Below are positions 3,992 through 49,661 of a stretch of 64,000 nucleotides of DNA, one piece after another; the first letter of the stretch is position 1, and each line of letters begins with the position of its first letter. Where the stretch lies: the NCBI GenBank assembly GCA_021234155.1, contig JAJEKV010000039.1:992001-1056000 (forward strand), read 5' to 3'. The position numbers and the translations under genes are program-made. Origin of the DNA: Isoetes taiwanensis (Eukaryota > Streptophyta > Lycopodiopsida > Isoetales > Isoetaceae). Below the pieces are notes generated by a model, which made no database searches, was not told the origin of the DNA, and saw nothing but the letters and a program-made list of their open reading frames with translations.

Positions 3992-4023
3992 CATTAGGGC
4001 GGATTTGGGGTCTGAAAATGGCC
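3992..4023 (+). repeat. Left 32-bp terminal inverted repeat
   Basis: It begins CATTAGGGCGGATTTGGGGT and ends with GAAAATGGCC. It is a perfect reverse complement of 22664-22695. The LINE ORF on its left stops abruptly here. Confidence 0.95.
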
Positions 4024-4610
4024 TCCTATCAGCCATTCCACGTCATATTTCCGCTCCCTTTTTCCCATGCCACCTAGGATACCAAACTCTCATAATTACA
4101 GATTTGCTTGGAATATTCTTCCGGAATAAGGGGGATTGCACATTCATGGCGCCATATGTATTTAATTCTGTTGGTTGTCAGACAAACTGATGCAACACGT
4201 GGCGCTTCTAAAATGCCACTTGCATTATAGCATATCGGCAACTCATGACGGTGTCTCTTGGTAAGCGTGCGCGTCACCGCCTTCTACATTTCAAAATTTG
4301 AATGTGTAGGTTGAAGCTTTGTATCGATCGGACTTTCATTTTCGGATTTGCATTTGGGCCTAGCTTTAACCGATCTTCACTTCATCCTAATCTGGGCTTC
4401 CGCCCCTACAATTCGAAATTTGAATTTGCTTAATGTATAAAAGCATGGATTGTAGGAGAATGGACTTTTCGATTTCCATATGCACGCGTTGCAAATTTCA
4501 AAAAACGGTTAGTACGGACGTTCGGCTCACACGGTTTAATTGTGTTGGGGCATAAAAATACCACACCTTGATTTCAAGGCCGCGATCTACACAAGATGGA
4601 AGTTGCTTGT
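4014..4610 (+). repeat. Subterminal direct repeat, outer copy
   Basis: From AAAATGGCCTCCTATCAGCC onward, this about 600-bp stretch is repeated, with small changes, at about 6001-6613. Shared landmarks are GGCGCCATATGTATTTAATTC, CACTTGCATTATAGCATA, CCGCCTTCTACATTTCAAAA and TATAAAAGCATGGATTGTAG. In this outer copy the sequence ends at a short ATGGAAG with no long frame behind it. Confidence 0.85.
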
Positions 4611-5093
4611 TGTCAAATTAAACTTAAACACAAGTGAGGTCGGCACTTACGTGGTTTTCTCGAGGAGGGTTTGGAGTGTTTTTTTTTTAAATCCCAATTA
4701 TCGACATAGTGTGACGTAGCATCTTGGTATTAAATAGTATGTTAAATTCGAATTATATCGGTGTTCATTTTCAGGTTAAACTCAAATCATATAGGTTTAG
4801 AAATAAGGTTAAAAAAGGAAAATATTGGATATTTAGGAATAAGGTTAGAAAAGGAAGATATTGGATATTTAGGTATAAGGTTAAAAAAGGAAGATATTAG
4901 ATATGGCTCAAATTTCGAGATATGCACATAATGGCATGTAATGATGGTTGATAGGACTGGAATACGAATCATTCCTACTATTTTCACGTCTAATCCAGCC
5001 TATATCTATTCCAGCCTAGATTGGCGCCCATTCTCCCCCCAATCTCCGCCCAATCTTCGCTAGATCCTCCGCCCAATTTCTTTAGTCCATCGC

Positions 5094-5400
5094 CATGAAG
5101 AGATCAGCTACGGAAGAGCCGGAGGTGTCCTCCAAGAGGCGCCTATTACGGCTGGAAGAGGTGTTCCCTCCGCTAGTTCCCTCCACGCCTACGGTTCTTG
5201 CTCTGAATGCCTCTCGATTCCTCGATTCCTCTCGATTCCTTTGACGAGGAATCGTGAGAATGAGGAATCGAGGAAATTTTGGAGCAGGAGTTCATCACAG
5301 TGTGTTCTTGAAGGCTGGATAGGAGATTCTTGAGAAAATGAGTATTCACCGGCGGAGAAGAAGCGAAGATGATGAAGAAGATGAAGAAGTTGAAGACTAA
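5094..5400 (+). pseudogene. Small basic/acidic protein relic near the left end
   Basis: An ATG at 5094 opens MKRSATEEPEVSSKRRLLRL (two basic clusters like a nuclear localisation signal), followed by EEVFPPLVPSTPTVLALNAS and a stop at about 5242 after a repeated TCTCGATTCC tract. Beyond it, frames encode GIEEILEQEF and a glutamate/lysine-rich stretch (EDDEEDEE) up to about 5400, suggesting a longer small acidic protein broken by frameshifts. The start style (short basic N-terminus) resembles the other small proteins of the element. I do not recognise a family. Confidence 0.4.
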
Positions 5401-5820
5401 TCTGGCGACTTCGAGGAGCTCATGGCGTTAGTTCATGGTACATGCATGTTTTCTTTCTTTTCTTAAGCATTCAACTAACGGTTATTTCTTTTTTTTTTTG
5501 GATGGTGAAGCGGATGAATGAAATTTGTTAGGGCAGAGCACCTCTTATTTTTTTTCCTTGTTCTTAGTCGAGCTTGCCTCCGACTTCTTACCATATGATT
5601 TTGCAAGCCTCGGGCTTTTTTGTTGTGAATAGTTGAAGCCTCGGGCATTTAAATTTACAAAAATGATGTAAAGCCATACGGCCATAAAAATTTTGAATGT
5701 AAAAAGTTTTTGCTTCTAATTCCATTTGAATACCTAACTTTTTTTTTTTTCTTGTACATGTGTTACCACTCTTAAGTACATAAGTCATTATCCCTTTTCA
5801 AAGAGCATATTATTTTTCAA

Positions 5821-5889
5821 GGATCACACCAAGTTTAATAGTACATATGCAACAAAAATGGAACACACTAAATTCGCGATCGTGTGATC
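5821..5889. promoter_or_regulatory. Palindromic module, copy 1
   Basis: GGATCACACCAAG at 5821 faces TTCGCGATCGTGTGATCC at 5872-5889. It is a degenerate version of the TCACACGACGCGAAG inverted pair found elsewhere in the element, spanning about 65 bp between the core arms. It lies upstream of the inner subterminal copy and the transposase gene. Confidence 0.55.
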
Positions 5890-6000
5890 CACTTTCTTAT
5901 TTGTTGTCAAATTAAAATTAAACACAAGTCCCTCGTCAATAGTCTCCCATTTGCATATAAAATATCTATCATTCCAAGTTATATTATGTTTTATGAACTA

Positions 6001-6613
6001 AAATGGCCTCCTATCAGCCATTCCACGCCATATTTCCGCCCCTTTTTTCCGCCGATTTGCTTGGAATATTCTCGGAATAAGGGGAATCGCGATATCTATG
6101 GCGCCATATGTATTTAATTCTCTTGGTTGTCGACCGATTGACTTAACACGTGGTGCTTCTAAAAGCCACTTGCATTATAGCATACCGGCAACTCATGGCG
6201 GTGTCTCTTGGTTTGTCAGATACCAATCATGCGCATCACCGATTCTTGTCTTGCCCTATTTTCATTTAGAGTCCATTCCCGCCTTCTACATTTCAAAATT
6301 TGAATGTGTAGGTTGAAGCTTTGTATTAGACTTTCGTTTGAGGGCCGCGATGGACGCCTTTAAAAGTTCGTGAATCGGGATCTTTACTTCATCCCAATAC
6401 AAGGCTTCCGCCCCTACAATTCGAATTTTGAATTTGCTTTTGTATAAAAGCATGGATTGTAGGAGAATGGACTTTTCGATTTCCATATATATGCACGTTG
6501 CAAATTTCAAAAACGAGGTTAGTACGGACTGAGCCTCAAACGGTTTAATTGTCTTTGGGGCATACAAATTGTACACATTCATTTCGCGCCGTGCGATCCA
6601 CGCGGTATGGAAG
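6001..6613 (+). repeat. Subterminal direct repeat, inner copy (likely transposase promoter)
   Basis: Second copy of the 4014-4610 sequence, lacking the terminal 20 bp of the inverted repeat. It ends in TTTCGCGCCGTGCGATCC (6582-6599), a degenerate form of the recurrent motif, immediately before the ATG at 6607 that starts the transposase-like frame. A TATAAAAG lies near 6440. The element's own end sequence therefore seems to serve as the promoter and 5' leader of the transposase gene. Confidence 0.65.
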
Positions 6614-9138
6614 CTCCAAATGATGTGTGGATAAGGATCCAACTGACTCAGGAATATGCTCCAGTCTTCAATCGCAAAAAAGGAGGTCTAAAAAATAAGA
6701 ACTTAGACCTCGACATGTTGCACCTTGCAGGCTCAAAAAGTGTCGACATCTGGGCGGATGGCAGTTTATATCCATTGGATCCGTTGAGTGGCAAGAAATC
6801 GTCATTTCGGGACGTTTCAAGTTTAGTCCGATTTTGTGGTGACGGTAACTCTGGCCTCTTGGGATATTGTGAGAGATTGAGAGAGGATGAAGGCATTCGG
6901 AATCGAATACAGTTCCTTGAGATGAGCTGCTTCCGATTGTCACAAGAGAATTATAACTTAAACCGCCAGAAATTTTTTTTCTCTCGCTTCATTACTCCAA
7001 TCGTGATGAAGGAAAGGAATGACGGCTTTGGGAGGAAACTTCTTTGAGATCTGAAGTGGACAAGTCCAAATTGGTGATAGGGCAGCTGCAAGAAAAGATC
7101 CAAGAGCTCGAAAGAGCAAACTTTGGGCTTCAATGTAGGTTAAAGAATTTGAAGAAAACACCCCTTGGCTTGCGAGAAAGGAAGAAGCATTATCGACCGA
7201 TAGAGGAACTGAAGTTTGGATCAGGTGCATTCAGACGCAGGGTCACGGCCACAAGGTCCGTTTTTACAACACTAGCAAAGGCCGGTTAAGATCCGGGGAA
7301 ACTAGAAGCAATCTTGGTTACGTAGTGAAGAACCTAGCGACTAACGGGGAGATAGTGGACATGATTTGTCAGCCCTACAACTCTCCCTCTCAAGAAGATG
7401 GTGTTGGAAATGGTACTAGGGGAGATCTACAAGAAGTTAGAAGCGGCGGATGTACTGATTGTTTGTGATGATGTAGGCATCGTAAGAGGCTTGGTTACCG
7501 TTCTCTATTCAAGCCATTCCACCTAAGCGTTGAAAAGAATGGGCACAAAAAGTATTCGCTCCACGTCCACAAATTGTCGAGAATACAAGGGTTACTAGGA
7601 CAAAGATGGTGTATGCCATATTAGGAGAGATGCACCACGTTGAATGTCTTTGGTCCCGCCATAGCCATAAAAGATAAGAATGGCAAGGATTGTTGTGATA
7701 TAGTTGGAATGAATGAATAATAATCTTTGGGTTGACCTGGTTACTCTCTTACAATTCCTTGTCAAATATTATGACTTAATGATTCACGGGAACTAATGGT
7801 GAGATTGAAGTTTGCATAAAATTGGATGAAATGGAACTGACCAAGTTTGAGAAGTATGAGAGGGTATCCGTTGTCATCATGAATAGAGCAATTGAGAATG
7901 CAATTGCACATGCTAAATCAAAGAGCAACAAGAATAACAAAAAGATGTAGAGGTGACGGACGAGGAGGAGAAGAAGCGCGCGGAAAAATGGTTCTCATGT
8001 CAACTTGAAGATGACACCTGGTGGTTAGGTCTCTTTAAAGTTCAGAAAGAAACTCACGAGGTATTGAAATGGGTGTTCAATCAAACTGACATCCCGAGTT
8101 TAATATCTAGATTCAAGGGAGGGGAAAAATTGCAAGTATATCACTATGGATCTTACAAAGTAATTTTTCACTTGGCGCCCGATTTAAAACCGAGAAAGCA
8201 ATGTACAACATAAGTGGAGGAGGACAAGGAACATGCAAAAGTTGTCTGTACTACAATCATGCAAGGAAGTCAAGTACTGGGAAGACTGTTTCAACCTTGT
8301 CCCTTAACCAAGCAAATGCTCCTAATAGAGGAGAAGAAGATCCCAAGTTCCATGGCATTTTCCCCATTCCATTAGAGAGGGTTCATATCTGCACTTTGCA
8401 CGGCTTTGTAAGAATCATCGACAAGATGATATTTTTGAGAGCAGATTCGGTGTGGAACATTTCGGACACAAGAAGAGAAGAGAGGAAGGAATTCGTAGAG
8501 TTGAACATGTTCTATCAGAAGCAGGTTTGCATGGTGGCAATATAAGATTAGAGCTCGATGAGAAACGGGCAGGAAGAACAAGTGTGCCTCGTAAGGTGTC
8601 AATTGGAGGGGTGAAAGCTCGACGCTTCATAAAGAATCATAGAGAGGCTCTGAACGGAAACCAGATGGGAGAAAAGGTCTATGAATTTGGAAAATTGCTG
8701 GTTGATGCGGAGCAGGACCGCACAGATGGCGTTCGTTCGGCATTGAGGAAAAAAAAGCATGGGATGCATTGTCTGAATTGTTCCCATACATTCAGAGAAT
8801 GGACCTCACAAGAGAAGATGCGGAAATGTTCGTGCAAGCGAATAACAAATTTATTAAAGCTTTCATAGACGCATGGGGAGAGAGTGAAGTCACGCACTAC
8901 TTGCACATCTTTTGGGCTCATGCACCTTGGTTTTTTAGGAAGTATGGAAGCCTAGCAGTGTGGAGTGCACAAGGCATGGAGAAGTCGCATAAACAAGCTA
9001 AAATAGCCTTTCATCGTAACACTCAAAGAGGGGTGGAAATGTGGGAACCAACCCTCTAAGACGGATGACGAGTGGTTTTATAGAAGGGCGATGGCTAACA
9101 TCGACAAGAAGGTCGCTTTAAGGAGCAACCCGTAAGTC
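6607..9138 (+). pseudogene. DDE-type transposase-like protein, frameshifted
   Basis: Successive frames on the plus strand form one broken protein of roughly 800 residues. The start MEAPNDVWIRIQLT at 6607 is followed by a coiled coil with a basic tail (7044-7289, RERKKHYRPIEELKF), a middle part with many breaks (ADVLIVCDDVG near 7450), EMELTKFEKYERVSVVIMN near 7840, KTEKAMYNISGGGQGTCKSC near 8190-8250 (the glycine-rich and Cys-x2-Cys segment of DDE transposases), PLERVHICTLHGFVRIID near 8370-8425 (likely the second acidic/His-Leu-His block), and HYLHIFWAHAPWF..YGSLAVWSAQGMEKSHKQAK near 8900-9000, which matches the family's last catalytic glutamate helix. It ends near DKKVALRSNP at about 9130. 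At least five frameshifts or stops are present, so it is inactive. The family name is uncertain; the identification rests on the order of these blocks. Confidence 0.6.
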
Positions 9139-9273
9139 GTAAACACCATTGGCATAATGTCAAGAGAAAACGAAAGTTGCTTGGCAAAATTCTAGGGCCC
9201 CACTAGCATCGCAATGCAGTGGAGATCTAAGAGACAAAGAATCGGTAAAGTATACTTGTAATGTGTAGCATGT

Positions 9274-9409
9274 TCACACGACGCGAAGTACTTGCCTCCA
9301 ACCTTGTTTGCACAACTGTAGCTTCGCGTCGTGTGATCTTATTTGTATCATACGGCGCGAACAGTGGAGTTCGCTATTGCTTGCATTTATGTGGCTTCGC
9401 GTCGTGTGA
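9274..9409. promoter_or_regulatory. Palindromic module, two tandem copies
   Basis: TCACACGACGCGAAG at 9274-9288 faces CTTCGCGTCGTGTGA at 9322-9336 (span 63 bp). A degenerate TCATACGGCGCGAAC at 9348-9362 faces CTTCGCGTCGTGTGA at 9395-9409 (span 62 bp). They sit in the gap between the convergent transposase and the minus-strand gene at 9478-9976. Confidence 0.8.
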
Positions 9410-9477
9410 AGCTTTACAAGATAATAATAAAAAAGGGTTACTTTTGATTAAAGTTGTGAAAGATGTTACATTGAAAA

Positions 9478-9976
9478 ACAAAATATAACGACTCATTGTT
9501 GCTCCGGCGAAGAGCTCTTCTTCATTATCTTCATCATCATCATCAGCTCCGCCCCGCGTCTTCGTCTTCATCTCTTCCTCTCAAGCGAGCAATCCCCCTA
9601 TCCAAACGTTCCTCCAATCTGTCCACCATCTCTTTGTACATGTCCCGCTCCTGCCCCAATAGCACAACGTGTTCTTACGCTTTGAATTAGCATCCTCGTT
9701 GCCATCATAACCACCTCGGCAGCGGTTGTTGGGGCATGTCATCCGTCGACCTTCTATTCAACCGCCTTTGATTTGCCTCTCCTGGCTACGAAGCATGAGA
9801 AGGTTGAATTCATTCTCTTCTTCTTTCTGCTGAATTATAACGGCATTTTCCTTTAGAAGATCATCTTGCTCCTTCAACCTCTTCATTAGAACACCCAACA
9901 CTATGTCAGAAGGGAGTTCTATCCTCTTGCGTTTTCCATTATCAGCGGTTGAGGATGTGGAGGCCATAGATGACAA
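9478..9976 (-). CDS. Small basic coiled-coil protein, paralogue 1 (probably frameshifted)
   Basis: The start at 9976 gives MSSMASTSSTADNGKRKRIELP, with a GKRKR nuclear-localisation-like cluster, then SDIVLGVLMKRLKEQDDLLKEN and a glutamine/glutamate-rich coiled coil ending at 9758. In other frames the minus strand continues as ERDMYKEMVDRLEERLDRGI and an acidic DDDDEDNEEEL tail near 9500, so the original protein was longer and has suffered frameshifts. The block LP.DI.L.V.MKR.KE is shared with the proteins at 15980-16207 and 16772-17035. TATAAATTG lies about 70 bp upstream (near 10055). Function unknown; small, nuclear and self-associating is an inference from composition. Confidence 0.55.
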
Positions 9977-10181
9977 ATGGGAGGGACGTTAAGATTATAG
10001 AAGTGAGGAGCAAAGACTCTAACCGGCGGAAGGAGCACAATGCAAGGACCTCAATTTATACATATTAGCGCTTGAACATATTAATACTCGGCTGCTGTCG
10101 CACGTGTCGAGCGGATTCTGTCGGTTGTCCGCTAGAACACATTAATGGTACTGTCCGCTGGAACACATTAATAACTACTAG

Positions 10182-11985
10182 TAATGGTGCCCAGCGTTGC
10201 TGGGCATAAGTTTAAAGTATGCAAATCTTTTGACCGCAATGGGGAATGCGTGCAGTAATAATCCAATCTTTGTAACTTATTATTATGACAAAAATTCTAA
10301 AGATTTAATAACGTTTAAAAGCTTCTTTGTGTTAGATAGTGTTGCATTCGTATCTCTGAGAGCTTTGAATAGAACAACACGGTGCGTGTTCATAAGAAAC
10401 CTGAGTGGGAGTATGATTTTTCATCTGAGCAGGTTTTGAGGTGAGGTTGTACTCGTCGTGAGGCTGGGCATAAGTTGAGACATTGTAAATGATGGAGTTA
10501 TCATCCTCAATATAGATAAAGATCATAGCTACATGCTCAAAATGTTATGGCGGAATACTAATGTCAAAATATTAATTCAAAATTTAGTATGTGAATATTT
10601 TCCGATTGTACGATAATATCAATGCTAGTGCTGTTACTATTACGGTATCACTTTAGCAAAGCATAATGTCGCCTTACATTTGAATACTATGGTCCTAACT
10701 TTTCTAGCCTTACATTTGGATATTATGGTCCAAATTTTTATGGCCCTGTTTACTTAGGCAAAGTTGGAATCATGTTATGATAGAACTAAACTGCTTTACA
10801 CTTAGATAATTACGGTCCAATCTTGATTTGCCTTGTTTACCTAGGCAAAGTTAGAAACCCATTAATGATAGAACCAAGTCACTGTTGACACTCGACAATA
10901 TCATGCATTTGAATTGAATAGTACATTCTACGCAGTTTATTATCTATATAAGTAGGTCTAGCATTAAATTAAACACCATTCTAAGTCCCCCAAACCATTG
11001 GGAAAAGTAGACCACTTTGTTTGATGTGGCAATGTCATTATTTACTGTGTGAACATAATAGAATGGCAGAACAGGCAATAAAAAGTTGTTCATTTTGATG
11101 TTCTCATGTACTAAAAGTTTGCTTCTCTATCTTGTCCAATCCTGCTATCATAGCACTCCACGATATGACATTGTGGGCATGTATCAAATTGAGAAAATGG
11201 CAAGCATGTTGTATGTTCCCCACCTACAATAAATACTTACTGTACATATACTGCAATCACTACACCCCATAACACGGCAATGCGCTCTAAAGAACAGGAG
11301 CTCATTCTTCTCCATTTCAATTAACTATGGGATTAATCTTTGCTCGATTCATGTATAACAAATGGTGAAACATTCTGCCATAACTTTGCAAAACTCAAAT
11401 GGCTGATCTCAATGTGTTCAGCATTTTACTATTCCAATGTTAGTGTCTCATGTGAATCTATTATCTATTATGAACTCTTAAAATTTGACTGTGGTGTCAT
11501 AGCATTCACGTTCGTCAAAAAAGAAATGGCCTATGGCTCTTACCTCTTATGAAGAGAATCATGTGCTAATTGACAGAAGTTTTATGTGATCGCCTTAGCT
11601 TTGCATTAATAGCAAGTAAGAAATGTACTGAAATACTGACAAAATGGAATCAGGTAAAACAATGGATTTAAGCTTACTTTTTCTAAGAATAAATTTGCAC
11701 GCAACCCTCAAGAAACCTCTGTTACTCTTCAGAATGTTTATATATGCATCCAAACATCTTTACATAGTCTAGATGCATGCATCTTGCCTCACAAATCTTG
11801 CGCCATATATGAGCAGAAACAATCTGGAATGAAGTGTAGTTGGACCTCCCAATAAATTTTAACATGTTAATCTTTGCCCTATCAAAGTTGAAGCATCTTC
11901 CAACCACAGTTCAAAAGGTGCTGGCTCATCTGCACCATATATCTGGAGACTACTCCAGCACATCACCATGAAGGGCATCGCCTCC
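10182..11985. other. Helitron interior, AT-rich, no gene recognised
   Basis: Low-complexity AT-rich sequence with a repeated phrase (CCTTACATTTGGATATTATGGTCC and relatives near 10670-10820). No convincing coding frame. Weak similarity to LINE C-terminal sequence is possible at 11722-11907 (minus) but not enough to annotate. Confidence 0.4.
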
Positions 11986-12432
11986 TCAATTGTGTGCTTT
12001 AGATCCGCTCAAATGTGTTTCCAAATTGCTAAAACAAAGCTCGTCTACAAAAACGTCCAAATTTTGGTTAAACGGGGTACATCCAACTATCCCTGTTTTA
12101 TAAAAAACTTGGCAAGTATAGGGGACTGGAATACCATTTTTGCGGAGCTCCATCCAATGCAGAGAGTCTAGCTGGCTGGGATAAACCCAGTAATAGCGCC
12201 ACTGATACGACATATATCCAGAACCCGGCCTTGTAAAGATAAGCCATCTTAGCAACTTCTTTAGAAAATTGTCCCCAAATCCATCACGCAATTTTTGTAT
12301 TTCTTTATCGAATAGACATTAGAATAACTATGTTGTCTGCCCCTACCTGAGGATTCAAAACACAACGTACACCATAAAGGCTCAAGGGCACCCAAATTTA
12401 AGACCCTGTTGAGTTAATAGTGTAATGTTGGT

Positions 12433-12662
12433 ATTGCATACATTTGGACAATAGGTAACTGAGGTACAAATTTATGACAATTGTGCAAAATTGTTACATT
12501 GCATACATTTGGACAATAGGTAACTGAGGTACAAATTTATCACAATTGTGCAAAATTGTTACATTGCATACATTTGGACAATAGGTAACTGAGGTACAAA
12601 TTTATCACAATTGTGCAAAATTGTTACATTAATGTACAAATTTATCAGAATTGTGCAAAATT
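12433..12662. repeat. Tandem repeat, 65-bp unit, 3 copies plus a partial
   Basis: Units start at 12433, 12498 and 12563 with ATTGCATACATTTGGACAAT; a fourth partial unit follows from 12628. The copies are nearly identical, so the array expanded recently. It lies within the Helitron. Confidence 0.95.
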
Positions 12663-13370
12663 GGTTGATAATATGGTTCAGGATTTGCAGATTCTTTAGA
12701 AATGTTGACGAAGATTTATCGGAACCCATGTTTATACAATATGACGTAAAGATGTGTATGATCTCAACAAAATGAGCTCATATGTTAAGCAATATCTTAA
12801 GCCCATTATATGAATATAATAAAGTAATGACATGTCATACCAGCAGATCACTATATGTAATGTTTCTAAGCTAGCTGCAGTACCCATTCTTCAGTGATCT
12901 GCATATATTTGTTGTATGTATCATTGGTATTGCTCTGTATCACTTGCATCTCAAATGCTAAAGCAATACATCTGAGTATCTAGGCTAGCAAGTGAAAGTC
13001 GCTTAGGCATGGGTTTGGAACGAAAGAACTCAAAAGCTGACATAGCAGTAAAGCATCAGGGATAAGATCCGCACCTCCACCTGCAGTAAATATTCCACAT
13101 CCTTACATGGCAAAAATTGAAGCAATAACTGCAGACTGCACTGGGTTCATCTAATAGAAAGGCAGCAATTCTAGAAACTACATGAAGGAGCATAGTGGAA
13201 TTCGAGGTTGTTTGTCTACTGCATAAAGGAATGGAAAATGCCTTGTTTGCTGCACAAAAGAGATCAGAGATTACCTGTTTACAGTTTGTAAATGCACGCA
13301 AGTCCAAGAATGCAAAAAAGGATTGGCAATTTCGGACTTTGCATGCCAAAACGAATTGCAAAGGGTCTGC

Positions 13371-13580
13371 TCATGCAAGAAACAGAATTGAACTTAGCCA
13401 TTTTGAAATGCGAAATTGTCTCCAGATAAATGGTGAGTCCTTTTCACCTAAAGAACTACCCAATGGATCTGCAAACATAGTGTATAACCTGTTTTCAGAG
13501 GCGTAAAGCATGGCCGTGTCTCCAATAACCGACTCACCAAGTACTCCTTTTTTGGACCCATCTAGATTTACCTTGCCCAT
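13371..13580 (-). pseudogene. RNase H-like fragment
   Basis: The frame reads MGKVNLDGSKKGVLGESVIG, which resembles the first strand of plant LINE-associated RNase H domains (VNFDGS.KGNPG..G.GG) and keeps the first catalytic aspartate in LDG. The rest diverges and the frame stops after 69 residues. It is probably a fragment captured by the Helitron. Confidence 0.4.
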
Positions 13581-14510
13581 TCATGTTTTCCAAATCACGG
13601 GCGCGCAAATCCTAGGATGATCTTGCTCTCCATACTATATAATACATATAAAATGTTCGACTTTTTGCATGAAATGATTTACATTAGATGATTGCTAAAA
13701 ACTTGATCTTTCCATGCTTCCACATTTTGTGTGCATGTTTTAGTTGTATATATGCAAATCAAGCATAAACGGAGCTTTTTTGCAGATGCTTGATGTCAAC
13801 GTGGTATTTATATAACAAAAGAAGAATAAACAGAGCAAAGCTTTAAAATCGCATATCTTGTAACAATCTGTCATGTGGGCTTCATATGCTCTGCTTCAAT
13901 CCCTGTTTCCCAAGGAGGTTGGGCACAAAAACCTCTCGCACAAAACCCAAATTATTTAGATAGGAAAAATCCGAAATGAAGCCTTGAGAATAAACTCGGG
14001 ACTTGAGATATGTTTGCCTTCAAATTGGAGCATGCAAATGGTCGCCAGTCCTTGCTTGCTCGCCAAGCAAACCCAATCATATTCATGATTTTAGGATTTA
14101 GTAATGATTTTAGAATTTAGAGAAACTCAAAATCATACATTTACCTCTTCTTGCCACAACTCTCGGAGACTTCAAAAAATTAGGTTCGACCAAGATAAAT
14201 TACAACCAAAACTTATTACAATTCCCATGCTCAAGTTTTAAATTCTGCATATCCAAGCTTCCTAATTGACGTTTCCTTTGCTTTGTCCAGCAAAACCTGA
14301 TAGACATCACAATTTGCAACACCAGCAATGGGCAGAGCCAGACAAATCCGACGCCATGGCCACTTACTCTGTGTTTTAGGGTAATAAAAGGGTGAGTTTC
14401 TTAGATCTGAACCGTTTAACTTTTAACTAAAATTTGGGTCGTTGGATCTAGGGCTGGGTCCAACACTTACAGAATAACTTTATAATATAAGATTCTAACT
14501 ACACTGTATA

Positions 14511-14572
14511 TCACACCACGCGAAATCTGCACACGAGCTTTAAAACCCTATGAAGGGTTTCGCTTCGTGTGA
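14511..14572. promoter_or_regulatory. Palindromic module
   Basis: TCACACCACGCGAAA at 14511-14525 faces TTTCGCTTCGTGTGA at 14558-14572, span 62 bp. A second nested palindrome AAACCCTATGAAGGGTTT lies between the arms. It is just outside the Helitron 5' end and just past the 3' end of the minus-strand gene at 14733-15150. Confidence 0.8.
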
Positions 14573-14732
14573 TCTGTCTTGTCATTCTCTCTACCACGGA
14601 TATTGAAAATTAAAAATAGGAAACGTAATATTCGGCACATTTGTCAAAAACTTTTCCCATTGAGAAATAAAACCAATTACAAACATTAAAAAAAAAAACG
14701 GGCCCCTCTAGGAGGAGCCCGATGCCTATGAT

Positions 14733-15150
14733 CGCCGGGCAAGCTCTTCCTGGAGGGCAGTGATAATTTTTTTCTGCTCCTCCAACATGATTGCTCGCCC
14801 CAAGAACCCACGTTCTCATATTCCGCAACCTTATCTTCCCGCTCATCGAAGTTGGGCTCGGGCAGCCTCTCCCGCTTCGATTGCGGCCCCTAAGCCTCTC
14901 TTGGAGGTTATATCGTCGTGGCGCAATTGGCGGTCTAAGGCAGCCACTGATTGTCGGCGCACTAAAATCACCTCCCTGTAGAAGGCGGCCTTTTCCTCCG
15001 CCGCAACCAGCTTGGCGGCGTCTTCATCATTCTTTTCTTTTAGAAGGCGGATCCGTTCCTCCGCTTCAAAGACGAATATTCTCGAATTTCCTTGACCAAA
15101 ACTTGAGACAAGATCTCGGCGGGGATGGAGGCGGAGCTGGAGGCCATTGA
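14733..15150 (-). pseudogene. Coiled-coil protein of the large element, frameshifted
   Basis: The start at 15150 gives MASSSASIPAEILSQVLVKE, similar in layout to the MASSS..LP.DI..V.MK start of its neighbours. After a frameshift the chain continues EAEERIRLLKEKNDEDAAKL and EEKAAFYREVILVRRQ, an alanine/glutamate-rich coiled coil. A further frame gives MLEEQKKIITALQEELARR and a stop near 14733. TATATAAAA is present upstream near 15240. A GC-rich inverted sequence (GGGCCCCTCTAGGAGGAGCCC) follows at about 14700-14720. About 140 residues if repaired; function unknown. Confidence 0.5.
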
Positions 15151-15789
15151 AAGTGATGGGAGAACGGGGAGAGATGGTCGAGGGCGGATGTGGTAGAACA
15201 GGAGATGGCGGATAGGAGAAGACAAAGGCCTCCGACGTTTTATATAGAAACTAGAGATACGTTGGAATCTACGGTTTATGAAAACCGATAAAGTTGTGTA
15301 ATAATCCCACGAGGCTAAATTATAGCATGCAATTAGGCAAGCGGTAGCCTATGTTCGCATCATGGGATCCGTCATATCCCAGCCGCATTGTATGCAGGTC
15401 GCATACAAAAGACAAATGTTATTGTGGCAAATAAGATGCCACGCCCTTGGCATGACGTTGTCATCCACAAGCCACGTATGTGAATAGACGTTGTCATCCA
15501 CATGCAAATTCGCATTTACGCAAGTTATCACATAATCTAGCTAGATATTTGTGTTACATATACTTTTCCATTAATAAATTAGGAATTTATACATACAACG
15601 AGGTGTGCGTTGTGGAGATCATCTGACGCCGAAATCCATTGATTGCTACCTAATTGCAAGAATGGCATTTGGCCGTCGGTGATGATTTTAATAAAACAAA
15701 ACAAGAGAACGGATAGAAGCAAGAAACAGAGCAAATTTTTCTTTGAAACAAAAATATATATACAATGGCTACGGATCTTCATGATCCAG

Positions 15790-16207
15790 AGGGCGGAAGC
15801 CGTGAAGGCTGCGTTCTCATCCTCCGTGACTTCGAAGCTTCTTCTCCATATCTTCTAGCGCCTGCGAAATATTGTGTGCAGTTAAAACTGCCTCGACCCT
15901 ACGGCTATTGGCCTCTCGGTACCTGGTTAATGTTGCCGCGAGCTCAAGGTCTCGCTCATGTAGCAGCCCCTCGTGAATTCTAACCTGTCCACCGCCTCCA
16001 TCTTTCTACGACGGAGGCGACGGTTTTTCGTCGTGGAACCTCCTTGAATCTCTTCATCACCACGGGAAGGATGATGTCCGGCGGCAGCTCTGGGGCGGGC
16101 CGCTGCCGGAGGAGGATGAAGATGCCATCGAGGAGAAGGCGGAAGGCGGAAGGCGGAGAAGATGAGCAGAAGGCGGAAGGCGGAAGAGGATCGGAGGTCG
16201 AAGGCAA
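15790..16207 (-). pseudogene. Small coiled-coil protein, paralogue 2 (unit A)
   Basis: On the minus strand the frame contains ELPPDIILPVVMKRFKEVP, matching paralogues 1 and 3. A frameshift follows; the next frame resumes as GLLHERDLELAATLTRYREA and ends LEDMEKKLRSHGG at about 15806. The start at 16207 (MPSTSDPLPPS) differs from the serine-rich start of paralogue 3, so the N-terminus may also be damaged. TATAAATAGAAGACC lies at about 16216-16230 and the palindromic module at 16254-16315, giving a clear promoter layout. Confidence 0.6.
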
Positions 16208-16253
16208 GATAGAAGGTCTTCTATTTATAACAGGGATTTCGTAGTAGCTTGAG

Positions 16254-16315
16254 TCACACGACGCGAAGGATGCCGTGGGTCAGGAAAATGGACCGTTACT
16301 TCTCGCGTCGTGTGA
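16254..16315. promoter_or_regulatory. Palindromic module upstream of a TATA box
   Basis: TCACACGACGCGAAG (16254-16268) faces TCTCGCGTCGTGTGA (16301-16315), span 62 bp. On the minus strand it lies about 30-90 bp upstream of TATAAATAGAAGACC, where a transcription-factor site would be expected. Confidence 0.8.
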
Positions 16316-16649
16316 GGAAAAAAGGATCAGTTACTTCTTCTAACGTCTTTTCTTCAGAAAGCTCGTGTGTGATAATTTTTATTGATAATTTGGTGATACA
16401 ATCTATACATAAGTAATTTTACTGATACATAACTAAAGATAGAACTTCTCATTGAAGCAAAATAGAACGGCATGGAGATCACACGACGCGAAATCCATTG
16501 ATTGCTACCTAATTGCAAGCAAGGCATTTCGGCCGCGGTGATATTTTAATAAAACGTAACATACATTGGAACAACGGGATAGATAGAAGCAAAAAATAGA
16601 GAAAACTTTTCTTTGAAGCAAAAAATAGATAGATACAACGGCTAGGGAT

Positions 16650-17035
16650 CTTCATGATCCTCTAGCTGATTTTCATGTCCCGTGGTGAAGCCGTGAAGGT
16701 CTGCGTTCTCATCCTCCCGCTCGGAGCTTCTTCTCCATATCTTCTAAGGCTGCGAAATCATGTGAGCAGTTTCAACCGCCGGCGCCTCGCGGCGTCGCCT
16801 CTTGGTACATGGCGAATGTTTCCACGAGCTCAACGTCTCGCTCGTGCAGCAGCTCCCTCGTGAAGGCTAATCTGTCGACCGCCTCATTGTTCTCGGCGAC
16901 GAGACGGTTGTTTTCATCATGGATCTCCTTGAATCTCTTCATCACCACTGCAAGGGTGATGTCCACGGGCAGCTCTGGGGGCTGGGGAGTGCTATCTTGG
17001 CGTGGTCGCTTGCTAGAGGAAGATGATGATGCCAT
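16650..17035 (-). CDS. Small coiled-coil protein, paralogue 3 (unit B)
   Basis: The start at 17035 reads MASSSSSSKRPRQDSTPQPP, with a KRPRQ nuclear-localisation-like cluster, then ELPVDITLAVVMKRFKEIHD and a heptad-like stretch ENNRLVAENNEAVDRLAFTR. The continuous frame stops at 16772 (87 residues). The sequence downstream (EDMEKKLRAGG in another frame) matches the end of paralogue 2, so a frameshift probably removed the native C-terminus. Promoter: TATAAATAG at about 17118-17126 and motif arms at 17138-17166. This is the best-preserved member of the set; function unknown. Confidence 0.6.
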
Positions 17036-17137
17036 CTGAGCGAAGGTGGAAGGCGGAAGCCGGAAGTAGAAGATGAGCGGAAGCGCGAAGGCGATCGGAG
17101 GTCAGCGTGGACATCGGTCTTCTATTTATAACATGAG

Positions 17138-17238
17138 TCACACGAGTTGCTTCTCGCGTCGTGTGAGGAATAAATAAATTAATTGTCTTTTTCCAATAAT
17201 ATTTCATTTCTTCGAGATAGATATCACACGACGCGAAA
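17138..17238. promoter_or_regulatory. Palindromic motif arms flanking the unit B promoter
   Basis: A half arm TCACACGAG (17138-17146) faces TCTCGCGTCGTGTGA (17152-17166), with the inner spacer deleted compared with other modules. A separate forward arm TCACACGACGCGAAA is at 17224-17238. Another forward arm of the same sequence is at 16479-16493. Confidence 0.75.
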
Positions 17239-17377
17239 ACCTAGATATGACGTAAAAATCGACCGATGTATTTTCGTGATGATGAATAAATACAAATAAA
17301 ATAATTTTTATTAGGAATTTCGGAAGGACAATCTGTACATAAATAATTTTACCGATACAAGTTGGAAAACATATTTC

Positions 17378-19608
17378 TCAAGCTTCGTCGTCAATTTCAT
17401 GCTCTTTCAATCCCCTGCCGCACTGATCCAACAAGGCAATGACTTCCATGTTATCGACCCCAGCTTCCAACCTTGGGTGAGTCAAGCCAGCAGCTAAAAA
17501 ATTTAACATATTGCTCGCCCGCAGACCGGCTTGGTCGTCAAAATATTGTAACACAACATCCCGCCGAATTGCTATCACCCTTTCAGTGTTTGATGCCAAT
17601 TGGGAACATGGAATAAATTACTACTCCTATATTTTTAGTATTAATAGCCAATTAGATTTAGCTAAACTACCTTCGAATTGGAACTAGAAGTTTCTAACAC
17701 TTGGCTAATCTAAATGCTTTTTCTCCGTCGTGGTTTCTTGCTTTTGGCTAAACTTTCACAAAATGTAGAGCAAATATTAGCCATCACACTATCCTTATTT
17801 TAAAACATCCAAGTCTTTGGATAAATACATTGAACTTATTGATATTACAATGTAATTCAATATAGAAAAATAAATGGTGCATAATGTAGCATAAATTGCG
17901 CAATTATAATCATTGTTATGACTTCCTTAATATGAAAATAAAATAAAGACATAAATTAAAATATAAACATATATGCACATGTTCAAAGCTCAAAGTAAAA
18001 GTGCAACGTTCCTTCTAGATGTGATCCTTCCTCTGATAACTCATTTTCTTACTTGAAGTAAGAAGCTCCTACTTCATCTTCGTACTCGAAACAAGAAGTT
18101 CTTTGGTGATTTCTTAAAGTTCCTATATACCTTAATGTCGGTTACTAGGCTAATCCATCCATTTTTCCAAGTTCACTCTTTCTTAGGTTTGGCTAATTGT
18201 TGTCCTGGTGGAGTTGTCTGGAGGTGGAGGTTTGGCTATCCAATCTAGAAACTCACTTGGTCGGCAAAAAAATTGGGCTAAAATTTTCTTTTTTTGAGCA
18301 ATTTTTCCCATTTACTTTAACCATTTTGCTTGGCAAAAATGCTATAAAATAGCCATTTGGCTAACCTTAGCCGTTATTTTATTCCATGATTGGGAATGGT
18401 TCCCGAACATGCATAATGCACGGATGTAATAGACAAACTCTGCACCTTTTGGACTGAAAGTTCTGCTGAAGACGATTATCTCCCCATTAACGAATCTTGA
18501 GATATATCGTAACAATGTAGAGTCCTTCAATCTTTCCTGTCCCCCACGTGCATGTCGGCAAGAAAAATCATCTACTTCCCACAAATAAGAACCCTCAAGA
18601 TTATCTTCTTCACATTTATCCTCATCTACCAGGCTTATGCTGCCGCGATTGACTGAAGGGCCTGCCAAACCTGTAGATCCTGTTGGCAGCTTTGCACAAA
18701 GACGCTGGAATTCTTCTTCCGTTGGTAGATTCGCCTCATCTTGAGAAAATCGAGACTCCAGCCTCTCATAGGCTTCTTTAAGCTTTATAGCATTGCCGGT
18801 ATAATTAGACACTTCAAACATCTCTTTGTCCAAATCCTCTTCAAAATCTAGGCCTAAGTTTACCCATTCGGCCAAGGTAATCGATAAGCTCGTCTTCCCT
18901 AGCACACATTCAGAACAAAGCGGGTTCCTCAAGATATCACTTAGCAATAAGTATTCTTTGCCTTCCACTAAAATTGGCGTTATGTCGGACAACTTCTTTT
19001 CATCCTCATCCCCATCCTCATCACCTTGAGAATCATCTCCCTCCTCCTGGTTCACCCAAGGCCGCCAAGGCCAAGCTAAAACTCCTACATTCTTGCTCTT
19101 CTTCTTGTAGATCTATCTCCATTTCTACGTCATAGTCAGATCATCATCACACATAACCTGACCCCTTGGCTTAAAGATTTCATTGTTTCCAAAGTGTATC
19201 TTGGTTTGGCGAAAGCGAGAATGCAATAACTAGCAAATGCAAAGCGGCAAAGAGAAATAAGATACCTTCTTAAGCACAAGGACGCAGCCGAGGAGCCCGT
19301 TATGCAAAGCATTCTTGAAAAACATCTTCCCTGTTTGCAAATGGGAAGCCGCCTCCTCTAGAGCTGGTTTTGGAATCCACGAGCCAGGGACATCTGCAAA
19401 GGACGTGCGCTGAGACCAAGCGGTCCGGGTGAAAGCTAAGGCAACCTCGCGATAGCATCCAAGCTCGCCATTGTTTGCCATGATGTCCAACTCCTTGCAA
19501 TAGAACGGATAAATCGCTAAATCGGCGCAACTTCCTCGTTGTCATGAGGGGGGATGCATACCATTCCGTGAACTTCACATAATAATCCATGGCGAAGCAA
19601 AAACGCAA
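17378..19608 (-). pseudogene. Acidic cargo protein of unknown function, split by a hAT insertion
   Basis: Minus-strand coding sequence in at least two exons. The 5' part (19608-19262) has MDYYVKFTEWYASPLMTTRK and then, after a frameshift, GELGCYREVALAFTRTAWSQ up to a likely donor (KK|GTATCTT) near 19262. The second part starts around 19090 with a region rich in Asp/Glu (DDSQGDEDGDEDEKK), followed by EYLLLSDILRNPLCSECVLG and RFVNGEIIVFSRTFSPKGAE. At 18396 the frame is interrupted by the 782-bp hAT element; it resumes without loss of frame at 17606 as LASNTERVIAIRRDVVLQYF and ends KEHEIDDEA at 17378. I do not recognise the family. The restored frame across the target duplication shows the gene was still open when the hAT element arrived. 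Confidence 0.65.
17607..18388. mobile_element. hAT-type non-autonomous element, 782 bp
   Basis: The ends are CATGGAATAAA and TTTATTCCATG, flanked by the 8-bp direct repeat ATTGGGAA (17599-17606 and 18389-18396). Short terminal inverted repeats with 8-bp target duplications identify hAT. The interior is AT-rich with many TTGGCTAA/TTAGCTAAA phrases and encodes nothing. It is related to the 605-bp elements at 29090 and 49662 by its ends and sequence style. Confidence 0.93.
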
Positions 19609-19715
19609 AAAACAAGATGTTTAGGAGCGGTAAGGTATTTGTCACTTTTGAACTCAAGTAGCCGTTGTCGATTATGAAAGGGGACACAGCCGTTGTGGGG
19701 AGATTTGTCCGTACA

Positions 19716-19745
19716 TTTTAGGGTTAGGGTTAGGGTTAGGGTTGG
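19716..19745. repeat. Short TTAGGG run (telo-box-like)
   Basis: Four consecutive TTAGGG units. On the minus strand this is CCCTAACCCTAA just upstream of the acidic cargo gene. In plants a telo-box is a known promoter element of growth-related genes. It is too short to be an old telomere. Confidence 0.7.
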
Positions 19746-19814
19746 ATCACACGACGCGAAGACTACTATGTGCAACAAAAAAGCACAATGCTTGTCTTGT
19801 ACCGCGTGTGATCC
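19745..19814. promoter_or_regulatory. Palindromic module between the acidic protein and histone genes
   Basis: GGATCACACGACGCGAAGAC (19744-19763) faces GTCTTGTACCGCGTGTGATC at the right, giving arms close to 18 bp and a total span of about 70 bp. It lies upstream of the acidic gene (minus) and downstream of the histone gene. Confidence 0.8.
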
Positions 19815-19945
19815 TCACGTATAACATTAAAAAAAAATACAAAGTGCGAAGCTAGGCTTCTAAGAAAGAAATGGACTAAGAGATTAAGCTTATAAAGCCA
19901 TTACATTAAGAAATATTATACATATGAAAAAAACACAAAGGCACT

Positions 19946-20819
19946 TCACGGCCTTTTTTCTGGGGGGTCTTTCTTCTTGTTGTATTCAGCCATAAAATTT
20001 TGACCATAGTACTCGGGATCCCTTATGCGTAAGACGAGGCGCATGTCCTTGGGCATGACAGTCACCCGCTTGGCATGTATTGCTGCAAGCTGCGAGTCCT
20101 CGAACAGACCGACACCAACTGCTTCCGAAGCCATTTGAAGAGCATTTAAGGCAGTTGCTTGAATTCTGTAACTGGTATGATGTATCGCACCACACTCTTG
20201 CAGAATCTCTCTCACGAGCCTGGCAAATGGGAGACGCGGAATGACCATCTCGGTGCTTTCGATACTTCTTAATCTCGTGAAGCGCTTTAATGCGGGCTTC
20301 GTCTTCCGCTTCCAGGCCACTACCCTCACCCACCCGGCATTTGGAGCTGTTGCTGTTCGGCCCGACTCTTCGGTAGCCTCCTCACCCCAAAGATTTGCGT
20401 TTTGTTCCTCGGCCGACTCTTCTTAAAATCTCCTCCTCACATTCCGGGTAAGCCTTCCCTTTTTCGGCATTGGGCCTCCTCCTTTGATTTGAAGGTCCGG
20501 CACCTCCACGGGGAGGAACGGGAGGAGCGGGGAAGAGCAAGAAGAGGCGGCTGCCCAATAATTAATCCGGCGTCATACGCTTTCGCCACGGTCTCTCACA
20601 TTTTCATCCTCGTCTCCAAACCGAGTGCACCTCCCTACTTACTCCGGAGCTGCTTCTCCCCGTCTGTCATCGCGGATTTCTTTTCCGGGTCTTACGGTAG
20701 GCATGGTGGGAGGAGGAGAATCTCTTTCGTGGACTTGAGTCGGATGAAGAAGGCGGACTAATGTAATCACCGCCTTACACCACTGAATGGATCCTTGCGG
20801 TTTGCTTAGTTCTTGCCAT
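19946..20819 (-). pseudogene. Histone H3 variant carried by the transposon
   Basis: Histone H3 pairs with H4 in the nucleosome. The ATG at 20819 opens MARTKQTARI, the canonical H3 tail start; a TATAAAAG sits just upstream near 20845. A long insert or intron (about 20795-20310, frames with stops, one giving PRKRFSSSHHAYRKTRKRNPR-like basic text) precedes the histone fold: [10 protein letters not shown], then after a one-base frameshift STEMVIP-type text, [54 protein letters not shown] and MRLVLRIRD. Compared with normal H3 the loop 1 region is four residues longer, alpha-3 is H3-like, and there is a C-terminal extension ([20 protein letters not shown]). Longer loop 1 is seen in centromeric H3, but [12 protein letters not shown] is ordinary H3. 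It is divergent and has at least one frameshift; if the gap is an intron it could still have been expressed recently. Confidence 0.8.
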
Positions 20820-20863
20820 GGCTTCTCGGCGGATGGCGCTTTTATACTACTTAACACCGACAA

Positions 20864-21063
20864 AAATAGACAACCGGCAAGAGATAAATAGTAAAAAATG
20901 TGGTTAAAGTAAAATATGATGGTAACGTTTTTAAATAATTGTGCGGAACCCTAAAAATATCGGACAAAATACGGAACCCTAAAAAACATCGACAAAAACA
21001 CAAATAAAAACCGAGATTCAAAGCGCTTAGCCGATAGACAATTTCTTGTTGATCGCGAACTCA
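20864..21063. other. Gap between the histone and BAH-like genes
   Basis: AT-rich spacer with two copies of CGGAACCCTAAAAA (near 20945 and 20980). No coding frame and, unlike most other gaps in the element, no clear TCACACGACGCGAAG module. Confidence 0.5.
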
Positions 21064-22372
21064 CTAAACTTTACATTTCCCTCTTGCCACGTAACCAACC
21101 CTAATGCCATCAATAAAATAATGGAAGTCGCCAAGAATCTCCTCTGTCTCCATTAGCACTCTTAGCTCGATAATGGCCATTCGCTTTCCATGGTGGCGAT
21201 AAATGACTTCCTCCCCTCTCCATACTCGAATATCCACCGTGATCGGAGTGTATCATTTATGGTCCTCAAAACGGCTCCCAAAAAGTTGTGCGGCCTCTCT
21301 TTTTTGTTTCCTTCATTCTAGTTGACAATTAACGATAAATATTGTTTTGGAAGAAAGTATCCGAACTTAAAGGAGGACTTAACTACGCGGACCTCTGTTA
21401 GTTGACCGGATGATTCGTGGAATCGAACATCCTGTGTCGGAACCAAAAATAAGCCATCCACAAAATCGCGGGGGGAGAAAGCACGATATGTCTTTGAGCT
21501 TTTCGAACTTCCTCGCGCCATCCGAATATGTTAGCAAATACCTCAAACGGTGTGAAGATTTTGAAACTCATCCTCACGCCTCCGTTTTTGACACATTCCC
21601 GCTTGCACCTCGTCACCATGCATTTCTTCATTGCAATTACATTGTTCTCATTAGTCCGTGGCTTACAAAGTTCACTTAAAGGGGGCAATTCAACCGGCCT
21701 CAAGCTTCGGTTTTCGACCTTTACGTTATAATCATGTCCAGAAAAACCAGATGCCTATACCCCGCAAGGTCACGGCATCCATACCTTGAAAAGGACAATT
21801 CCGATGTCTATGTGATACACGACAAGTACACTACTAATATTTTCGGCCGGAATGACATCCACGACGCCCGATAAACATAAACCCGCACAATAAATTTGTT
21901 TGTAAACACGTGTCAACGAAAAGAAATGAAAGATAAGGAGATGACGACGCTTAAAACTATCTCTACGCAGATTAAGTAGCTGATAGATAGTTTTGGCGTC
22001 GGTGATCCGCTTAAGGTGGTTACCATTTTGCGGGCAATTTTGGGAAGCCGTTTTTGGTGGAGATTAGCTCTTTGGCCATATCGGAAGGGGTATATGCATG
22101 TCGTATTGTTATACTTTCCACTTTTCTACCGCTAGAATTCAACTTGAACTCTTTTATCCTACCTATCCAATGTGTCCGCATCGCCTGATCGCCTTTGTCG
22201 CTTAACTCTATGCTCGCCCTCGTTGATGGCAAAGATACTCACCTGAACCTATTGAGACAAAACCTCCCACTTCTTGACCTTGGGAGTTCGTAAATGGGGC
22301 AAGAACACGAAATTACGGGGAGACATGGATTGCGGATGAGGAGTGAAGGCGGAGAGGATGCACGAGAGGGCG
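21064..22372 (-). pseudogene. Possible BAH-domain protein, multi-exon and broken
   Basis: Minus-strand coding-like blocks in order: SPRNFVFLPHLRTPKVKKWEVL near 22310, HWIGRIKEFKLNSSGRKVES with ITIRHAYTPSDMAKELI (22020-22180), VVDVIPAENISSVLVVYHID near 21820, VELPPLSELCKPRTNENNVI and KKCMVTRCKREC (21600-21690), YRAFSPRDFVDGLFLVP (21440-21490), then ITVDIRVWRGEEVIYRHHGK, RMAIIELRVLMETEEILGDF and a stop at 21064. The WIGRI..I......V..RH.Y.P.D...ELI pattern followed by DV.P...I...VVYHID resembles a BAH domain, a chromatin reader fold in EBS, SHL and ORC1. The match is by eye and incomplete. Stops and frame changes mean introns or decay; I could not define exons. Confidence 0.35.
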
Positions 22373-22663
22373 CCGGAGTGACATCTGAAGTTTGGCGCCA
22401 AAATTTGACAAGGGAGTTAGTGACGCTGACAGTAGGCGGTCAAAGTCACCATTATTTTGGGCAGCGAAGCGACTCCCGAAAAATACGAGCCATTAAAATG
22501 GTTGCAATAAAAGCGCAGGCATCCCCTATGAAAATACGCCATGTGGATGCCAAGTAAGCCTGCTCATCCTTCTACCTGCCAAGTAATACTGACTTTCGTA
22601 AAAAAGGCGCAAACCTGATTGGTCCTGGCGAATCTGACGTGGAAATCTTTAGCCCAAGATAAG

Positions 22664-22695
22664 GGCCATTTTCAGACCCCAAATCCGCCCTAATG
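22664..22695 (-). repeat. Right 32-bp terminal inverted repeat
   Basis: Perfect reverse complement of 3992-4023. The LINE resumes immediately to its right. Confidence 0.95.
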
Positions 22696-22900
22696 GGGCT
22701 TGGGGGCCTTTAAAGTTGCCAATTTTTTGCCCCATTCCTTCAACCAATTCTTAATTGCTTTGGGAACCTTTATCCACCAGTACATCCATCCATTGTTCCC
22801 TTGTGGTTCTGGATATCTCACAATGGTCCAGGATCAAAATTGTATCCTAGTATCTACACCAATAGAGCTGGAACAAATTTTGTGTCTATCTTGATACTTG
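22696..22900 (-). mobile_element. LINE family A fragment, 5'-side half
   Basis: On the minus strand it reads WWIKVPKAIKNWLKEWGKK, matching WWVRVSKAIKNWLKEWGKE of the copy at 39.9 kb. It is the direct upstream continuation of the LINE segment that ends at 3991. The large element therefore sits inside this LINE. Confidence 0.85.
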
Positions 22901-29033: not shown

Positions 29034-29952
29034 TTACAATTCTTTCTCCACTGTATCAGGCTCCACAGTGCTAGCAATAGGATTAGATGCATGGAATAAT
29101 TTAAGGGCTAAACTTAGCTATTTGGCGATTTTTTAGCACATTTTTAAAAAACAATAGCTAAAGTAAATGGAAAAAATTGGGAAAAAAATAATAATTTTAG
29201 CTTAACTTTTTTCGAGACTGCACCAACCCTGGAGCTCTTTAGCCCAACGCTAGAAAGTAAGAGAGTGAAATTTTGTATTGTTTAGCTAAACCATAGAAAC
29301 TTTTAGAATGAATTTTTGGCTAGTTTAGCTAACATCATTCTAGTTTATACAAAATATATGATTAGTAGTTTAGTTTCTAGCATTATGAATTAATTTAAGT
29401 CCTAGGTTTTGCTAGTTAGCATTATTCTAGAATGTTTTCACAAAGAAAATGACTAAAATAAGTGAAAACGATTGAAAAAAGGTATAGTAATTTGGCTTAA
29501 TATTTTTTTGTTGGCCACACCATAGAAATTTTTGGAATGATTCTTGGGTTAGTTTAGCTAAACGCTAGAAAGTATGAGAGCAAAAGTGTGTAGAGGTTAG
29601 CTAAACCACAGAAAGTTTTGGGATTAATATCGAGCAAGTTTAGCTAAAGTCATTCTGGCTAATAAGAAATATACGATTAGTAATTTATTCCCTGATTAGA
29701 TGGCCCGACACTGTTGATGGGATCAAAGTCAAAAACATGGGCAGTGAGGTCAGCTACATCGAGATTGTCGAGGTCGAACTTAGTATCTTTAATAGTATCA
29801 TAGTCGACATCAGGAATCTTAGGTGATTTCACTGCTTGGCTCGTTTCTGCATGTTCCTCAACTCCAAGAAGAGTACCTTGCTGCTGGGACACATGGACTA
29901 CAGTGAGGATAGGATTGAGCACACGGTCTAGCCTGCCAAGAATCCCCTTCAA
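29034..29952 (-). pseudogene. Unidentified ORF interrupted by a hAT element
   Basis: From 29952 the frame reads MKGILGRLDRVLNPILTVVH, then an acidic section DVDYDTIKDTKFDLDNLDVA and FDFDPINSVGPSN up to the hAT element. Across the insertion (removing 29090-29694 and one target copy) it stays in frame as PIASTVEPDTVEKEL and a stop at 29034. This suggests a real coding exon before insertion. I recognise no domain; upstream it runs into a LINE tail at about 30008, so only a fragment is preserved. Confidence 0.45.
29090..29694. mobile_element. hAT-type non-autonomous element, 605 bp, copy 2
   Basis: The ends are CATGGAATAATTTAAGGGCTAAA and AGTAATTTATTCCCTG; the 8-bp duplication ATTAGATG is at 29082-29089 and 29695-29702. 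The interior is rich in TTAGCTAAAC phrases and non-coding. It has exactly the same length as the copy at 49662-50266. Confidence 0.93.
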
Positions 29953-45090: not shown

Positions 45091-45105
45091 CTAACAAATA
45101 GGGAA

Positions 45106-49640: not shown

Positions 49641-49661
49641 GTAGAGGTATCTAAATAGAAC

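Follow-up and report, generated by a model that had tools for sequence, protein, structure and literature searches.

The transposons of the CMCT group comprise EnSpm/CACTA, Mirage, Chapaev, Transib, Plavaka, ESTA and Lanisha. In the part of their published description drawn on here, they share 5'-CA..TG-3' termini in most cases, target duplications of 2-5 bp, and a transposase with a C(2)C motif after the second D and an H(3-4)H motif before the final catalytic E (PMC12730594). ESTA, a fungal member with TA duplications, carries a TET/JBP passenger in three of its families, according to the same sections of that description (PMC12730594). Here we analyze an 18.7-kb unit at positions 3992-22695 of a 64-kb stretch of DNA from Isoetes taiwanensis (contig JAJEKV010000039.1, positions 992,001 to 1,056,000), hereafter the window. 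On balance, we take this unit to be a decayed, multi-gene cut-and-paste transposon of the CMCT group, inserted into a long interspersed nuclear element (LINE) with a probable GG duplication of its target, and equipped with palindromic modules that may be sites for a regulator.

Ends, target site and transposase relic

The features that define the unit, its insertion site and its transposase are the following.

2217..3986, minus strand: left flank of the interrupted LINE, in matches at 2217-2676 and 2946-3986
3990..3991: left copy of the putative 2-bp target duplication, GG
3992..4023, plus strand: left terminal inverted repeat, 32 bp, starting with CATTA
4015..4614, plus strand: left-end segment that is repeated directly inside the element
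6000..6627, plus strand: inner direct copy of the left-end segment, without the outer 23 bp, preceding the transposase gene
6607..~9250, plus strand: broken transposase gene with several frame changes, ATG at 6607, 3' limit inferred
7461-7478, plus strand: candidate first D in VCDDVG, a guess
8169-8189, plus strand: candidate second D in HLAPDLK
8234-8245, plus strand: candidate C(2)C motif, CKSC
8904-8921, plus strand: H(4)H motif, HIFWAH
8973-8990, plus strand: final E in GMEKSH, 20 residues after HIFWAH
22664..22695, minus strand: right terminal inverted repeat, 32 bp, identical to the left one when inverted
22696..22697: right copy of the putative target duplication, GG
22727..22786, minus strand: right flank of the interrupted LINE, a short match to a LINE paralogue

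An earlier note on this DNA had described identical inverted 32-bp ends around one inserted unit with LINE sequence on both sides, together with a 600-bp subterminal repeat, and all of this was borne out. The two 32-mers bounding the 18.7 kb are exact inverted copies, the left one reading CATTAGGGCGG, and the terminal letters of the element are CATTA...TAATG. No further copy of the 32-mer was present in the window even when up to nine substitutions were allowed. Inverted likeness between the ends runs across 66 alignment columns at 80% identity, and the subterminal repeat is the direct copy that starts 23 bp inside the end. A LINE paralogue at 39857-42025, with an open frame of 723 residues and an RVT_1 match at 1.7e-35, aligns with the left flank at 2946-3986 and then with the right flank at 22727-22786, in the same order and on the same strand. 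Thus, one unit interrupts a LINE.

The letters flanking the unit are ...ATTGG on the left and GGGCT... on the right. Compared at lengths of 1-9 bp, the flanks are completely identical at 1 and 2 bp only, giving GG. With one GG removed, the LINE is back in frame across the junction, which then reads WLKEWGKKLATLKAPKPNDRQENIRK in frame with ...GDQQEQIRK of the paralogue. Dropping 5 bp (0/5 identical) or 8 bp (4/8 identical) restores the frame as well. As the restored frame reaches a stop 17 residues beyond the junction, this copy of the LINE is defective in any case, and the frame lends support without being decisive. A GG target duplication is therefore probable, being the best reading of the flanks yet short of proof. 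No full flank match was found at 3-9 bp, which tells against the longer duplications of Mutator (9 bp), hAT (8 bp), Transib (5 bp) and CACTA (3 bp), lengths taken in part from general background.

The earlier note had also recognized a relic of a DDE transposase, and the broken gene at 6607-~9250 with its RAG1-like H(4)H and E agrees with that view. In a reading that crosses a frame change, some 18 residues separate CKSC from the candidate D of HLAPDLK that precedes it. The open reading frame (ORF) at 8706-9059 matched the Pfam family RAG1 at E = 0.007, with 15 bits against a cut-off of 25. When a 367-residue composite of the transposase was compared with PDB sequences, RAG1 accounted for 15 of the 16 entries at E ≤ 10 (E 0.099 to 0.58), and the reversed composite returned zero entries. 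The alignment with RAG1 is gapless over 39 residues, 13 of them identical in the best case, and it places HIFWAH on the H(4)H of RAG1 and pairs the E in GMEKSH with that in GNES. A single-sequence structure model of the ORF containing this E had a mean predicted local distance difference test (pLDDT) score of 59.6; a Foldseek search with this low-pLDDT model produced no hit at E ≤ 0.001 and did not show RAG1 among the best 50 entries of either list.

A RAG1-like transposase end (a weak yet specific match), CA..TG termini and a probable 2-bp duplication together fit the CMCT group. Of the earlier view that the element belonged to no transposon type that could be named, the DNA transposon stands, whereas its type can now be narrowed to probable membership of CMCT.

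Palindromic modules in the element

The 11-mer CACACGACGCG occurs nine times inside the element and not once in the rest of the window. Its sites pair as GATCACACGACGCGAA, a spacer of about 35 bp, and TTCGCGTCGTGTGATC. We scored such modules over both arms (maximum 32), using five shuffles of the element and the reversed window as controls. Twelve places inside the element and one outside scored at least 20; the control maximum was 22 for the five shuffles and likewise 22 for the reversed window. Eight modules inside the element exceeded all controls, with scores of 23-31. A 12-base core, CACACGACGCGA, allowing up to two mismatches, was found 13 times in the element and nowhere in the other 45.3 kb, and 100 Markov simulations of the element contained it 0.65 times on average and three times at most. 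Unselected palindromes of similar span numbered 14 in the 18.7 kb of the element and 47 in the 45.3 kb outside (0.75 versus 1.04 per kb). Since the element is no richer in palindromes overall, the signal of the modules lies in their shared sequence. The spans of 13 modules, counted with the shortened and dropped ones excluded, are all 65-71 bp.

9272..9338: module, 31/32, 3' of the transposase gene
9346..9411: module, 27/32, 3' of gene Z
14509..14574: module, 29/32, 3' of gene A
15303..15369: module, 25/32, 5' of gene A
16252..16317: module, 27/32, 5' of gene B
16477..16543: module, 25/32, 3' of gene C
17222..17288: module, 23/32, 3' of gene D
19745..19813: module, 27/32, 3' of the H3-like gene
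4526..4592: weaker module, equivalent of 6534-6598 in the left end, assigned by homology and by eye
5822..5889: weaker module, 22/32, at control level
6534..6598: weaker module, 21/32, at control level, just before the transposase ATG at 6607
15617..15684: weaker module, 20/32, at control level, tandem copy of 16477-16543
17136..17168: shortened module 5' of gene C with its spacer deleted, assigned by eye
21938..22008: possible module near the right end, 19/32, long arms, 71 bp, assigned by eye

Relative to the genes deduced below, the eight strong modules divide into six on the 3' side (of the transposase gene, Z, A, C, D and the H3-like gene) and two on the 5' side (of A and B). A relaxed scan gave six places with a score of 19; the one at 21938 was kept by eye for its long arms, and another, at 17098, coincides in part with the shortened module at 17136. 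With a score of 20, the place at 22133-22190 was considered to be at chance level and dropped, and the outside place at 44584 (score 21) is at control level.

Gene array, interior repeats and neighborhood

Apart from the transposase gene, the following genes and one nested repeat were delimited inside the element.

5095..5820, plus strand: possible small basic gene, Y (MKRSATEE..., broken frames, read by eye)
9460..9967, minus strand: gene Z, small gene related to C
14613..15147, minus strand: gene A, encoding a small coiled-coil-like protein weakly related to C, spanning a frame change
15613..16232, minus strand: gene B unit, tandem copy of C, broken frames
16473..17133, minus strand: gene C unit, with an open frame of 87 residues from 17035
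17607..18388, minus strand: interspersed repeat nested in the element, with its ends as the two matching stretches
18345..19112, minus strand: gene D, open frame of 256 residues
19949..20819, minus strand: histone H3-like gene, MARTKQTAR start at 20819

The H3-like gene substantiates the chromatin-related cargo that the earlier note had announced. Its ORF at 19946-20422 matches the histone fold, PF00125, at 7e-25; the fold itself lies at 20285-20012 with a frame break near 20256, and the frame that opens with MARTKQTAR soon reaches a stop. Identity to H3.2 is 55 of 86 aligned residues, with a loop four residues longer than in H3.2. We call the gene H3-like because the best 60 of 178 matching PDB sequences are H3-type (H3, H3.1, H3.2, H3.3 and variants). 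CENH3 was considered in view of the longer loop, yet all of those best 60 matches are H3-type; CENP-T_C gave a weak Pfam match below its cut-off. Next to the module at 19745, TTAGGG is repeated 4.3 times (19718-19743), and upstream of the gene, at 20944-20997, are repeats containing AACCCTAAAAA, which we take to be telo-box-like.

Among the small minus-strand genes, Z, B and C encode a P.DI.L.V.MKR.KE motif followed by a coiled-coil-like stretch, and A has a looser version. Z resembles C at E 1e-8, and B is a tandem copy of C with 74% identity across 684 columns. Gene D matched no Pfam family above its cut-off. Much of the recognizable cargo thus comes down to a histone gene and a single family of small genes that has multiplied. 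Many reading frames of the element are broken, and the open LINE paralogue argues against base-call error as the cause; because so many frames are broken, this copy is probably non-autonomous. The nested repeat at 17607-18388 is a diverged copy of an interspersed repeat of about 610 bp that also occurs at 29087-29697 and 49659-50269. Three near-identical 65-bp tandem copies lie within the element at 12433-12630. Nothing identifiable was found between about 10 and 14.5 kb of the window, and although inspection by eye had hinted at PPR fragments at about 11-12.4 kb, the frames submitted matched no Pfam family.

In viral contigs, no stretch matched the transposase patterns, and neither the 30-mer end nor the strict module pattern gave any match; three stretches fitted the histone pattern, none of them a relative by tblastn.

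Elsewhere in the window, the ORF at 39333-39776, a fragment adjoining the open LINE frame, matches Terpene_syn_C_2 at 9.2e-7, which suggests a microbial-type terpene synthase. Such synthases occur in non-seed plants. A 264-residue ORF at 37437-38228 carries a Replitron_HUH domain (4.1e-20), the mark of a recently described transposon group that is absent from seed plants and hornworts, as stated in the relevant part of its description (PMC10741241). A second type of non-long-terminal-repeat retrotransposon occupies 44456-45821, with its two halves in opposite directions: RVT_1 at 44456-45052 on the minus strand and an Exo_endo_phos ORF at 45153-45821 on the plus strand. An array of a 15-bp unit resembling GGGTATTTATACTTA, with about 66% matches, extends over 48965-49639. 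Scans of the 64 kb with Rfam (gathering threshold) and for tRNAs returned none.

Proposed function and competing explanations

From what is described for its group, the transposase, RAG1-like and of the RNase-H type, would act on the 32-bp ends by binding, cutting and rejoining them, and the gene array of transposase, small coiled-coil-like family, D and H3-like histone would belong to the element. Since the transposase is broken yet the ends are perfect, the last move of this copy was probably made in trans by an intact relative. Our best guess for the modules is that they bind a regulator or anti-silencing factor encoded by the element. As the sequence of the arms and the span are kept while the middle varies, this factor may be dimeric, perhaps a coiled-coil protein, and by binding it might keep the gene array expressed and unsilenced, as VANC does for VANDAL. 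Within their own element, VANC motifs are found chiefly outside coding sequence, according to the passages of PMC5735166 drawn on here. The likeness, a short motif restricted to a single element family and chiefly to its non-coding sequence, supports at most a comparison of how the two work (PMC5735166). The VANDAL transposase belongs to a different superfamily, MuDR.

Several points weigh against this interpretation. Every RAG1 match is weak, with E of 0.099 or worse in the PDB comparison and Pfam scores below cut-off, and FCD, a bacterial helical domain, nearly equals RAG1 both for ORF 8706-9059 (E 0.028) and for a 353-residue composite (0.17, against 0.078 for RAG1). These composites were pieced together across frame changes, and none of the families EnSpm, Plavaka and KDZ appears at E ≤ 10 in the Pfam list of the composite, a query so broken that a miss does not exclude KDZ. 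The limits of the genes were read from broken ORFs and are thus deduced, and the likeness of A to C is weak (E 0.011). A 2-bp match of the flanks is expected by chance in about 1 case in 16. The module consensus was derived from the element itself, and at three mismatches the core is found 17 times inside and 10 times outside. Finally, VANC motifs form tandem arrays in one orientation, not palindromes, in the same passages on VANDAL (PMC5735166).

With the CMCT group the element shares CA..TG ends and, albeit with weak E-values, a RAG1-like transposase end in which the H(4)H of HIFWAH precedes the final E; the putative short duplication and the candidate C(2)C would fit as well. It differs in its broken transposase and in its H3-like gene and palindromic modules, the last two being absent from the portions of the published descriptions used here. 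It resembles ESTA in joining a RAG1-like transposase to a chromatin-related passenger, but its flanks are GG/GG rather than TA and its passenger is a histone. For RAG1/Transib, the likeness is the gapless 39-residue match to RAG1 over H(4)H and E; Transib makes a 5-bp duplication, whereas the 5-bp flanks of the element match at 0/5. Among the entries listed in a literature search weighted to open journals and covering titles and abstract openings, neither a histone gene nor such modules turned up in any CMCT element.

The strongest competitor, possible though clearly less probable than our reading, is that the element belongs to Lanisha, in which case only its cargo and modules might be new. 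Lanisha reportedly came from a moss, and the Replitron HUH and Terpene_syn_C_2 matches in the window point to a host of non-seed-plant type. Its place within CMCT is stated in PMC12730594, whose reference list attributes it to Maumus, McDaniel and Carey (Repbase Reports 2020).

As to the modules, the main rival to protein-bound DNA is that they are RNA hairpins at transcript ends, acting in termination or 3'-end formation. The 3' position of six of the eight strong modules agrees with this, and RNA folding, run with no shuffle control, gave -25 to -29 kcal/mol for 5 of 13 modules. Others fold weakly (-8.8 and -9.9), the strong modules at 15303 and 16252 are placed 5' rather than 3' of genes, a weaker one immediately precedes the transposase ATG, and the conserved arm sequence and constant span of 65-71 bp suit protein-bound DNA better. 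We therefore hold hairpins to be unlikely, at odds somewhat worse than those of Lanisha membership.

It is less probable still that the element is a large, gene-carrying variant of plant CACTA/EnSpm proper, a type known for its subterminal repeats. Large size, host-like genes and short inverted ends are shared with these elements, which are usually longer than 10 kb and in some cases contain host gene sequences, in the part of PMC10741241 consulted. The CMCT motifs are common to both. Nevertheless, the 3-bp flanks, TGG and GGG, are identical at only two of three positions, the EnSpm transposase family is missing from the Pfam list of the composite, and the ends of the element start with CATTA rather than the CACTA or CACTG given for CACTA proper in the same part of that source (PMC10741241).

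That the perfect ends came from two separate elements around an assembly of unrelated insertions, as the duplicated left end and the repeat nested at 17607-18388 might hint, is very improbable, given that the LINE sequence runs on in order across the two flanks and that strong modules span 9.3-19.8 kb of the window with none at such a score outside the element. We give equally little credence to a gene-cassette system in which the RAG1-type transposase would also act on internal CACAC...GTGTG palindromes bracketing genes, so that genes would be gained, duplicated or exchanged as in an integron or a V(D)J locus, although modules do sit near gene borders and the aligned duplication of B and C starts at most 4 bp from a module edge.

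In conclusion, if further copies share the gene array of this putative CMCT transposon, it would represent a RAG1-related transposon with its own H3-like protein and a dispersed palindromic control element. Were this true, it would offer a direct test case for transposon counter-silencing in plants, and it would contribute fresh data on how varied the transposases of RAG1's own group are.

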